Assembly (NCBI RefSeq): GCF_002153425.1
Contig: NZ_KZ119600.1
Span: 1,595,103 to 1,659,102, forward strand
Length of the DNA stretch: 64,000 bases
Direction of reading: 5' to 3'
Origin: Litchfieldia alkalitelluris
GTDB taxonomy: Bacteria > Bacillota > Bacilli > Bacillales > Salisediminibacteriaceae
The notes under the pieces were generated by a model. The model did not search any database, was not told the origin of the DNA, and saw nothing but the letters and a program-made list of their open reading frames with translations. The position numbers were made by a program, and so were the translations under genes. This document shows positions 4,790 through 7,161 of this stretch, piece by piece; the stretch's first letter is position 1; each line of letters opens with the position of its first letter.

Positions 4790-5899
4790 ATGCTAGGCAC
4801 GGATTTATTCAAGGGCTTAAATGAAACTTTACCTGAGGAGTATAAGAAAATGGCTCCTCAGGATTTAAAAAAGAGAGCGTGGGAGATAAAAAAGGAGTTA
4901 GGGAACAGACTTTTTATACCTGGACATCATTATCAAAAGGATGAAGTCATTGAATTTGCTGATGCAACAGGGGACTCTTTACAACTTGCACAAGTTTCTG
5001 CAGAAAACCAAGATGCAGAATATATCGTATTTTGTGGTGTTCATTTTATGGCTGAGACAGCTGATATATTAACTGGGGATCATCAAACAGTGGTTTTACC
5101 TGATATGCGCGCCGGCTGTTCCATGGCAGATATGGCTAATATGGAGCAAACGGAACGGGCGTGGCAGAAGCTTCAAGAGACGTTTGGTGACACGATTATT
5201 CCGTTAACATATGTTAATTCAACTGCCGAAATTAAAGCATTTGTTGGAAAACACGGTGGTGCAACTGTTACATCATCCAATGCTCACAAAATGTTAAAAT
5301 GGGCCCTAAGCCAGAAAAAAAGGGTATTGTTTTTACCAGACCAGCATTTAGGGAGAAATACAGCATTTGATTTAGGAATCCCTCTTGAAGAAATGATTGT
5401 TTGGAATCCTATATCAGATGAGTTCGAAGGTCCTACTGAAAACTTGGACGACATGCAGATGATTTTGTGGAAAGGTCATTGCTCTGTTCATGAGAACTTC
5501 CGAATGCAGCATATCCATGACCTTAGGGAAAAGGAACCAGATCGACATATTTTAGTTCATCCAGAATGTACCCATGAGGTAGTGACAGCTTCTGATTATA
5601 ATGGATCTACGAAATATATTATAAATAAAATAAAAGAAGCTCCTCCAGGAAGTAAGTGGGCAATCGGCACGGAAATGAATCTTGTGAATCGCTTGATTCA
5701 AGTGCATACGGATAAGGATATAGTTTCCTTAAATCCAGAAATGTGCCCATGTTTAACAATGAATCGTATCGACCTGCCACACTTTGTATGGTCACTGGAT
5801 CAAATTGTAAGTGGGAAGCCTGTAAACAAAATTAAAGTAGATGCTGAAAAATCAGCACTTGCAAAAACTGCGATTGAGCGAATGTTCCAGTTTGTTTAG
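4790..5899 (+). CDS. nadA: Quinolinate synthase NadA
   Basis: A 4Fe-4S enzyme of 369 aa that condenses iminoaspartate with dihydroxyacetone phosphate to quinolinate. Likely cluster cysteines are in FCGVHFM (about residue 82-87), HPECTHEVV (about 258) and MCPCLTMN (about 320), the pattern of Bacillus-type long Nad[10 protein letters not shown] and [11 protein letters not shown] are also conserved. The ATG begins 2 bp after the nadC stop, with AGGGAGGGG upstream. NifS encoded divergently is the expected cluster-assembly partner. Confidence 0.95.
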
Positions 5900-6022
5900 T
5901 TTACTTAGGTTGCTTAATTTGTGTAGCAATACAGCCCCCTTTTGAAAAATAAAAGAAGGAAAGTGAAGGGAATAGGGAGAATGTAAATAAACAGGAAAAA
6001 TAAGTTAATAAGAGGGGATTCG

Positions 6023-6481
6023 ATGAAATTAGCTGAAGCTTTAATATTACGTGCAGATTATCAAAAAAGAGTAGAACAATTAAAAAATCGCTTGGTTCAA
6101 AATGCTAGAGTCCAAGAGGGAGATCAGCCTACTGAGGAGCCTAAAGTTTTGATGGAAGAGTTAACTAGTCTCTTAGGTAAGGTAAAACAACTCATTCAAA
6201 AAATTAATCGTACAAATATAGAGACGTCATTTGATAATAATGAAACTTTGGCTGACGCACTCATCAATCGTGACATAATAGGTCAGGAAAGAAAGTTCTA
6301 TAGTAACATGTTAGAAGAAGCCACTATGAGACATGATCGTTACTCTAGGTCAGAAATAAAGTATGTTACTACAATAAATGTAAAAGAAACGCAAAAGTAT
6401 GTAGACGAACTGTCGCAGAAATATAGACTGTTAGACGTGAAAATACAGGAGTTAAATTGGAGAACAGATCTAATGGAGTAG
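6023..6481 (+). CDS. DIP1984 family (septicolysin-like) protein
   Basis: A 152-aa, largely helical, charged protein starting MKLAEALILRADYQKR, which I recognise as the DIP1984 family, with typical stretches IQKINRTN, LADALINRD and RLLDVKIQELNW. The ATG follows AGAGGGG. No catalytic motif is visible. I recall that the family has been linked by gene neighbourhood to bacterial Y RNAs, but cannot verify it here. The context fits: a tRNA-like, Y-RNA-like sequence begins within about 15 bp of its stop codon. The biochemical role is unknown; RNA binding is inference. Confidence 0.85.
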   Translation: MKLAEALILRADYQKRVEQLKNRLVQNARVQEGDQPTEEPKVLMEELTSLLGKVKQLIQKINRTNIETSFDNNETLADALINRDIIGQERKFYSNMLEEATMRHDRYSRSEIKYVTTINVKETQKYVDELSQKYRLLDVKIQELNWRTDLME

Positions 6482-6489
6482 TAGTTATT

Positions 6490-6612
6490 TAATAGGTAGT
6501 GTAGTTGGTAGCGAATAAGAAAAGGCGAATACCAAACCTAACAACAGGTCAAAGTTGTATGATTGGTACGGATTTCGGGGGATCCAAAGAGGTTCAAGTC
6601 CTCACTTTAACA
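6490..6612 (+). ncRNA. Candidate Y-RNA-like / tRNA-like RNA
   Basis: The stretch carries tRNA hallmarks without a normal cloverleaf. A D-loop sequence AGTTGGTAG is at 6503-6511. A T-arm has stem GAGG (6589-6592), loop TTCAAGT and stem CCTC (6600-6603). Between them is a long imperfect hairpin: TACCAA (6530-6535) pairs with TTGGTA (6563-6568), enclosing ACAAC (6541-6545) with GTTGT (6554-6558). A small hairpin GGAT/ATCC (6570-6585) follows. GGCGAATA (6524-6531) is close to the Ro-binding motif of bacterial Y RNAs as I remember it. There is no CCA end, so it is not a functional tRNA. The 5' and 3' ends are uncertain; a terminator follows at 6743. Confidence 0.6.
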
Positions 6613-6742
6613 ATTTATACCCAGGAATACTTACAAATTTACTTTTTACACACCAAAACAGTTTACTACCAGGTATTGATTTTCTATTCGTGAGGGTGGA
6701 TAGGGGAGTCGTATATAAAAAGAAATGTGCTAAATCGAAAAC

Positions 6743-6781
6743 AAGCCAGATTCCATGAAAACCATGGTATCTGGCTTATTA
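6743..6781. terminator. Bidirectional rho-independent terminator
   Basis: A stem of about 15 bp (AAGCCAGATTCCATG with CATGGTATCTGGCTT, one mismatch) has a loop of about 5 nt and AT-rich flanks, with GTTTTC on the minus side. It separates the Y-RNA-like region from the convergent ASCH gene. The 130 bp between the RNA candidate and this hairpin show no gene. Confidence 0.8.
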
Positions 6782-6819
6782 TTTATGTTGAATCAATCGA
6801 TAAAAGACAAAATTACAAC

Positions 6820-7161
6820 TTATTCAGTCTCTGCTTTAAACTCATGCACCCATACCTTCATTTGTGGTTTCCAAGGCATTCCTGGGTGAATGGATAGTAT
6901 AGAATTTTTATATTCTTCTAAGTTATTGTATCCCTCTTGTACTGCTATTTCGTCCGTTAGATCACCTAACGTCTGTCGGTATACACGCTCTACTTTAAAA
7001 CGTTTACCTTCCAGCACCATTATTTCTCCAGGATCAGCGTATCTGCCATTCCTTCGTGTTGCAGTTTTCTTTCCAGCAAGTGCTTTTTCAATATCTTCTG
7101 GCTTTGTAATTAGTCTATCAATTTCACATGTTTTTGGTGGTAAAGTTTCTTCAATACTCAT
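6820..7161 (-). CDS. ASCH domain-containing protein
   Basis: A 113-aa protein with the ASCH (PUA-like) fold pattern: a GKKTATRRNGRYADPGE segment at about residues 29-46, then VERVYRQTLGDLTDEIAVQEGY and a C-terminal W-V-H-E-F strand. ASCH domains bind RNA or act on modified nucleosides; no specific substrate is inferable. GGGGGATATAAC precedes the ATG. The gene stands alone, between a bidirectional terminator and the divergent dbpA. Confidence 0.85.
   Translation of the reverse strand: MSIEETLPPKTCEIDRLITKPEDIEKALAGKKTATRRNGRYADPGEIMVLEGKRFKVERVYRQTLGDLTDEIAVQEGYNNLEEYKNSILSIHPGMPWKPQMKVWVHEFKAETE

Follow-up and report, generated by a model that had tools for sequence, protein, structure and literature searches.

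The window, a stretch of 64,000 nucleotides from the genome of Litchfieldia alkalitelluris, carries a gene of the DIP1984 family and, just behind it on the same strand, an RNA of about 200 nucleotides with a predicted fold of its own (Table 1). The family assignment made in the first-pass annotation is borne out, as the open reading frame scores 186.5 bits against Pfam DUF6847 (cut-off 27) and 192.1 bits against the NCBIfam DIP1984 profile (cut-off 70), and it matches no other family in Pfam or NCBIfam. AlphaFold2 models the product as a four-helix protein with a pLDDT of 94.4. A PDB chain with 48% identity to it, 3kdq_A, comes from Corynebacterium diphtheriae and belongs to a structure titled functionally unknown; a fold search of the PDB with our model returned 3kdq (two chains) as the sole match at E ≤ 0.001. 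Full-text literature searches by family names, identifiers and 3KDQ found no study of a DIP1984 protein among the papers within reach, many subscription papers and all supplements lying beyond it. Some Acinetobacter plasmid records and papers call DIP1984 genes septicolysin, which is the name of a cytolysin or toxin. In the accessible text of the papers checked this label is annotation, and DIP1984 likewise appears as annotation in the accessible text of a plasmid paper.

Table 1. Features of the DIP1984 locus in window coordinates, with the predicted elements of the RNA
Feature	Position	Strand	Basis or remark
DIP1984 / DUF6847 gene, 152 aa	6023–6481	+	Pfam and NCBIfam profile matches
Structured RNA core, ~200 nt	6507–6707	+	Covariance model R1, 150.4 bits, E 8.6e-42; score not independent, the window being among the 63 training sequences
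AGTTGGTA, D-loop-like junction at foot of rod helix P2	6503–6510	+	GGUA occupies this place in 80 of the 92 RNAs
P2 rod helix, 5' strand, GCGAATA-A-GAAAA-GGCGA-ATACC	6511–6533	+	Covariation
H-type pseudoknot	6537–6558	+	CCT 6537–6539 with AGG 6546–6548; ACAAC 6541–6545 with GTTGT 6554–6558
Hairpin GGAT/ATCC	6570–6585	+	G-rich loop 6577–6581 pairs with CCC 6620–6622, giving a second pseudoknot
tRNA-type T-arm, GAGG-TTCAAGT-CCTC	6589–6603	+	Strict form present in 55 of the 92 RNAs
Joining region, mostly unpaired	6604–6671	+	Conserved ACAA, CCCAG, ACA, ACUACC (columns of alignment A2)
P2 rod helix, 3' strand, GGTATTGATTTTCTATTCGT	6672–6691	+	Covariation
G-rich tail, GTGAGGGTGGATAGGGG	6690–6706	+	AGGGYGG motif downstream of DIP1984 loci
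Terminator-like hairpin, then T-rich stretch	6743–6777	+	Read from the window sequence
Gene for a small ASCH-domain protein, facing the RNA	6820–7161	−	Pfam 23.8 bits, just above cut-off

The fold of the RNA was derived by comparison of related loci. A first alignment held 76 non-redundant RNAs aligned without structure, left from 104 after removal of 15 near-copies and then of 12 divergent sequences and one without the 5' anchor. An unguided pair scan of this alignment places the covarying pairs in stacked helices. In alignment A2, which contains 63 sequences and was not fitted to the structure, 36 pairs were counted; the share of cells paired is 89.6%, and 30 of the 36 pairs have changes on both sides, which are the compensatory changes across relatives that the first-pass annotation had proposed looking for. 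Covariation in A2 is 0.479 compared with 0.199 after shuffling (none of 500 shuffles as good) and at most 0.096 when the structure is slid along the alignment, with the structure, derived from the same and overlapping sequences, somewhat favored in both controls. A rescored set of 81 sequences gives the same helices, whose scores reach 123 where column shuffling yields 28 at most, in an alignment fitted to the model. Rod helix P2 accounts for 17 of the counted pairs, and 16 of these change on both sides (13 of 13 in the inner part and 3 of 4 in the outer part, with 94.5% and 95.1% of cells paired, respectively). In the H-type pseudoknot, whose commonest form among relatives is CCC.CCAAC.GGG.AA.GUUGG, changes on both sides occur at 5 of 5 pairs of stem 2 and 2 of 3 pairs of stem 1 (86.3% and 86.0% of cells paired), and the hairpin that follows has 3 of 3 such pairs with 84.1% of cells paired. 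The T-arm stem changes on both sides at 2 of 4 pairs. The weakest element is the pairing between the hairpin loop and CCC, where 75.0% of cells are paired and 1 of 3 pairs changes on both sides; one extra pair (CG, UA or UG in relatives, 83.6% paired) is unformed in the window. We thus regard it as confirmed, on comparative evidence, that a conserved RNA with a predicted covarying fold lies behind DIP1984. When the window RNA was folded as a single sequence, the z values of 0.31 and 0.93 carried no signal, which is unsurprising for a member that is rich in A and T and contains pseudoknots. The RNA does not code for protein, as the lengths of 92 cores are spread evenly across the classes modulo 3 (32, 31 and 29) and the helices covary, and the conserved protein frame that might have undone the RNA assignment is thereby absent.

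These data also redraw the feature described in the first-pass annotation. The tRNA-like letters that it reported behind the gene are present, including GGCGAATA from position 6524, and the T-arm lies above chance, as its strict form, G-UUCRANY-C (after the T-loop consensus) on a stem of at least 3 bp, occurs in 55 of the 92 homologous RNAs, compared with 3 of 1840 sequences after shuffling. Of the two hairpins placed between D-loop and T-arm, the short one holds, whereas the long imperfect one is not the conserved structure, since the 5' strand of P2 pairs with a strand beyond the T-arm, with the H-type pseudoknot and the GGAT/ATCC hairpin in between. The feature also continues past 6612 to about 6707 and includes the 3' strand of P2 and the G-rich tail.

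An outer helix, P1, is indicated by the flanks of the core. For the top 88 of 96 RNA matches by score, the 40-nt flanks on either side of the core pair with each other at a mean of −14.1 kcal/mol, compared with −10.9 kcal/mol for flanks swapped between loci (p 2.6e-6). P1 is no more than 4 nt away from the core in five loci (L003, L019, L022, L069 and L076), and in another (L116) it can take in the last codons and the stop codon of DIP1984. The window's own P1 is weak, at −5.1 kcal/mol. The strict T-arm is missing in 37 of 92 RNAs. GGUA is found in 50 of the 55 RNAs with a T-arm and is kept in 30 of the 37 without one, which argues that the D-loop-like motif does not serve merely for docking to the T-loop. 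The tail motif AGGGYGG occurs within 450 nt downstream in 104 of 109 DIP1984 loci (a set that includes duplicates and the window's own locus, and in which one positive, L117, is a chance match in another frame) and within 450 nt upstream in 4 of 109. The five loci that lack it (L004, L035, L036, L052 and L054) still match the covariance model, and the tail is also missing from the RNA copies on Psychrobacter and Acinetobacter lwoffii plasmids. Since tail and strict T-arm are each missing in some RNAs, neither is indispensable. Where present the tail is nearly invariant, so covariation cannot speak on a G-quadruplex or on pairing of the tail with the CCC of the first pseudoknot. A pairing of GGUA with ACUACC, first seen by eye, was rejected because it has no compensatory changes and would cross P2. 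Terminator-like sites follow the RNA in 44 of 92 loci as compared with 20 of 92 shuffled regions, a modest excess.

Nine related genomes have DIP1984 genes, at 40–78% identity, that are likewise followed by a related sequence about 200 nt long. Across 100 sources model R1 matches 94, which are all those with a DIP1984 gene (in L033 cut by the contig end); 33 of the 94 lie outside the training set of the model, one of them (L037) repeating a training locus. The remaining six sources (L012–L016 and L034, examined over the 3 kb fetched) have only a below-cut-off family match, indicating that the RNA accompanies the true family only. The core starts a median of 11 nt after the DIP1984 stop codon and within 50 nt of it in 85 of 92 loci. 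Genome-wide searches of the window's own genome and 99 relatives detected the RNA in 10 of the 100, exactly those with DIP1984 over cut-off. Among 299 genomes of the window's phylum, a set that has a few members in common with the 100, the RNA occurs in 16 and DIP1984 over cut-off in 17, with 15 common to both. In the sixteenth RNA genome (G317) DIP1984 is cut; two genomes (G127 and G392) have DIP1984 without an RNA match under the stricter filters, yet divergent RNAs are present, L025 scoring 32.3 bits and L026 showing the tail motif. When 201 Chloroflexota genomes were searched for the RNA first, it was found in 14, and all 12 fetched loci have DIP1984 just upstream, one of them (L168) only as a 26.8-bit fragment. 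These 12 comprise 11 newly fetched loci and the known starting locus (L153 within L080), with G517 and G477 left out. No DIP1984 lies near a second, weak and partial RNA match, L166 (23.8 bits). Searches of 15 whole genomes or records gave one match in 13 and two in 2, although this search picked up just one of the two copies in L117. The pairing of the RNA with DIP1984 is therefore close to obligate, and the partner named in the first-pass annotation is indeed its constant genomic companion; binding between the two is plausible.

Several loci carry altered or repeated copies. In L011 (1498–1869) an in-frame TAG interrupts DIP1984, yet the RNA that follows is matched at 85.9 bits. L020, L021, L035 and L036 have tandem DIP1984–RNA pairs in which the RNA of the second copy lacks the tail. 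The RNAs of L035 and L036, both second tandem copies, are the weakest of the matched sources (23.1 and 17.5 bits), and their proteins differ at R10, N65, R83 and E111, positions at which alignment A3 shows little or no variation.

By record title the pair is found in Bacillota, Chloroflexota, Acidobacteriota, Cyanobacteriota, Pseudomonadota and Verrucomicrobiota, and a Streptantibioticus plasmid adds Actinomycetota as the seventh phylum. In the wider relative set the Chloroflexota, Acidobacteriota and Verrucomicrobiota records are metagenome-assembled genomes, in which binning can err; this set consists of the best 80 of 367 relatives and so leans to close ones. DIP1984 is present on 371 of 72,556 plasmid records, 342 of the 371 being from Acinetobacter. 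All five fetched plasmid loci match R1, at 101.4 bits in Picosynechococcus, 83.1 in Streptantibioticus, 53.4 in E. faecium, 39.5 in Psychrobacter and 24.1 in A. lwoffii; a PemK/MazF pair and further toxin-antitoxin-like genes are found close to the Picosynechococcus copy. A search of viral contigs with the window DIP1984 alone gave no relative and one with the alignment gave one. The 178-kb IMG/VR contig L117 holds a DIP1984 gene and two RNA copies (4998–5178 and 5799–5983; 42.3 and 29.0 bits) located 0.5 and 1.3 kb downstream of that gene with other frames between. By eye, the frame between the two RNA copies resembles an HNH/endonuclease VII protein. Five phage records contain DIP1984-like frames. 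An exact-pattern scan of the viral contigs gave 4 stretches that were rejected, as none matches the covariance model, and in nucleotide searches the window RNA had no match among plasmids and the L117 RNA none among phages.

In a protein tree of 80 rows the phylum label changes 9 times, near the minimum possible of 5 and well below the shuffled mean of 25.2, so that phyla mostly stay together. Horizontal transfer of the module is likely, though it is not proven by this tree. A scan of 92 loci for 3'-end duplications of the kind left as integration scars found L104 alone, tandem and viral copies aside. There the RNA 3' end and its downstream flank recur (5785–5910; 69 nt, 88% identity) some 1.25 kb after the full RNA, a layout such as an insertion at the 3' end of the RNA might leave. 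The site behind nadA was compared in eight congeners, none of which has the module there, and their downstream genes differ too, so the ends of an insertion could not be set. Within 4 kb no gene cluster other than DIP1984 itself (73 of 80 loci) occurs in more than 13 of 80 loci.

In order to place the RNA among known classes, we searched the window and related loci with several tools. ARAGORN found no tRNA or tmRNA gene in the whole window, and Rfam 15 had no match there at gathering score, Y RNA and tmRNA included; neither program thus detects in the window the tRNA-like domain and tag frame of a tmRNA. At E ≤ 10 Rfam gives seven weak matches within 6350–6850, the best at E 0.67, far below gathering and none of them a Y RNA, and at E ≤ 1 in 20 loci it gives 6 matches, none over the RNA. 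The covarying structure lacks both a D-stem and an acceptor arm. The class of RNA paired with DIP1984 is real and absent from Rfam 15. Literature searches by general terms found nothing naming it; many subscription papers and all supplements were beyond reach and an earlier notice is possible. The main texts of three RNA-discovery papers (PMC11109978, PMC8632094 and PMC6429828) contain no septicolysin, tRNA-like or T-loop term.

Taken together, we favor the reading that the DIP1984 gene and the noncoding RNA behind it are a two-part module that forms a ribonucleoprotein (RNP), with a probability of roughly 0.6. In this module gene and RNA would be made as one transcript, the RNA would be cut from its 3' end, and DIP1984 would bind it as a dedicated RNP acting in trans, a sequence of steps that the genomic data make jointly probable. 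The RNA would have the shape of a long rod, P2, with a head of two pseudoknots, a frequent T-arm and conserved single strands, and with the G-rich tail at its end; in many relatives P1 would close the whole. The two RNAs of L117, which lie apart from the DIP1984 gene, count for action in trans, and they could still share its transcript. The mild acidity of DIP1984 (pI 4.8–6.8 in 19 of 22 proteins examined, the other three having 7.9, 8.0 and 9.0, the last truncated) is unlike many RNA-binding proteins and would count against the RNP. We tentatively suggest that the T-arm, perhaps also the D-loop-like junction, might bring the RNP to tRNA-handling proteins, for instance the T-loop pseudouridine synthase TruB. 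It is possible, if on balance unlikely, that the module is an RNP spread horizontally through at least seven phyla, plasmids and viral DNA, and that its RNA does the work, as an effector mimicking tRNA or as a ribozyme, with DIP1984 as a dedicated holder. The patchy spread of the module, which takes in chromosomes, plasmids and a viral contig, suggests an accessory function, be it in stress, defense or element maintenance, and not a housekeeping one.

DIP1984 could instead bind the end of its own message and control stability or translation through a cis-acting 3'-UTR element, with no free RNA. The genomics predicted by this explanation are nearly identical to those of the RNP, and it fits the closeness of the core to the stop codon and the ability of P1 in L116 to include the final codons and stop. 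We nevertheless consider it improbable, as the viral contig L117 has two RNA copies away from the gene and, in our judgement, about 200 nt with two pseudoknots and single strands invariant across phyla are more than autoregulation needs. Still less probable is a toxin-antitoxin-like or anti-phage module with DIP1984 as toxin or sensor and the RNA as antidote or trigger. The two-part, patchy make-up without fixed neighbors, the many plasmid records together with the viral contig and the PemK/MazF pair near the Picosynechococcus copy would suit such a system; the window protein has no Pfam or NCBIfam family other than its own and no PDB match at E ≤ 0.001 other than 3kdq, which speaks against it. 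In type III systems of the ToxIN kind, a small protein and a pseudoknotted RNA occur on mobile and chromosomal DNA, and the RNA antitoxins are tandem repeats that precede the toxin gene. The DIP1984 module shares the small protein, the pseudoknotted RNA and the mobile and chromosomal distribution, but its RNA is single and lies behind a gene that matches no toxin family.

The identity proposed in the first-pass annotation, a Ro-associated Y RNA, is very unlikely even as a distant relative, since the RNA fails on the defining features. The YrlA Y RNAs have a T-arm mimic and a long helix (PMC8394870, PMC7790460) and, with Rsr/Ro60, tie a noncoding RNA to a dedicated protein, and in these respects, as far as the accessible parts of those papers describe them, they resemble the RNA behind DIP1984. 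The differences are that the latter has two pseudoknots and a G-rich tail, lacks the strict T-arm in more than a third of cases (37 of 92), has neither acceptor arm nor D-stem, is longer than 90–150 nt and has as its partner a four-helix protein, not Ro. A TROVE/Ro search (PF05731) of the window's genome gave no match, which also leaves the suggested distant Ro without a gene, while the same profile was positive in 1 of 14 control genomes. The observation behind that annotation is confirmed as real but partial, whereas its Y-RNA label is unsupported. An RNA as compact, conserved and pseudoknotted as this is often a riboswitch, and a riboswitch or leader of the next downstream gene was considered on this ground. 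The next gene, however, is on the opposite strand in 33 loci, on the same strand in 31 and absent in 3 (n = 67), a split that argues against a leader of that gene; no constant family follows and in the window the next gene is the convergent ASCH gene, so this is refuted as a general role. Also refuted is a decayed tRNA or tmRNA gene: the T-arm and D-loop-like letters recall one, whereas neither ARAGORN nor Rfam matches, and across phyla the RNA is conserved and shows covariation in a fold of its own. In tmRNA a D-loop-like segment without a D-stem leads into a long P2 helix, accompanied by pseudoknots and a T-arm. The DIP1984 RNA has all of these, but its T-arm sits inside the head of the rod, it has no CCA acceptor and it gives no ARAGORN match.

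Ornate RNAs with strong covariation and invariant single strands in many phyla are rare, and those that have been understood are usually ribozymes, riboswitches or parts of RNPs. The OLE RNA with OapA, as described in the accessible literature, is a large ornate RNA with protein partners whose exact biochemical function is unsettled; it resembles the present case in this and differs in its length of about 600 nt, in that the DIP1984 RNA matches no Rfam family and in that DIP1984 matches only DUF6847/DIP1984. The raiA motif (ModT RNA) is, on the parts of the literature available, likewise a widespread structured bacterial RNA, and here too the RNA behind DIP1984 differs in having no Rfam match. 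The RNA looks like the second half of a protein–RNA pair. This link turns DIP1984, a dead-end family with a solved structure, into a testable protein–RNA system, and the covariance model is a concrete tool with which to search for it.
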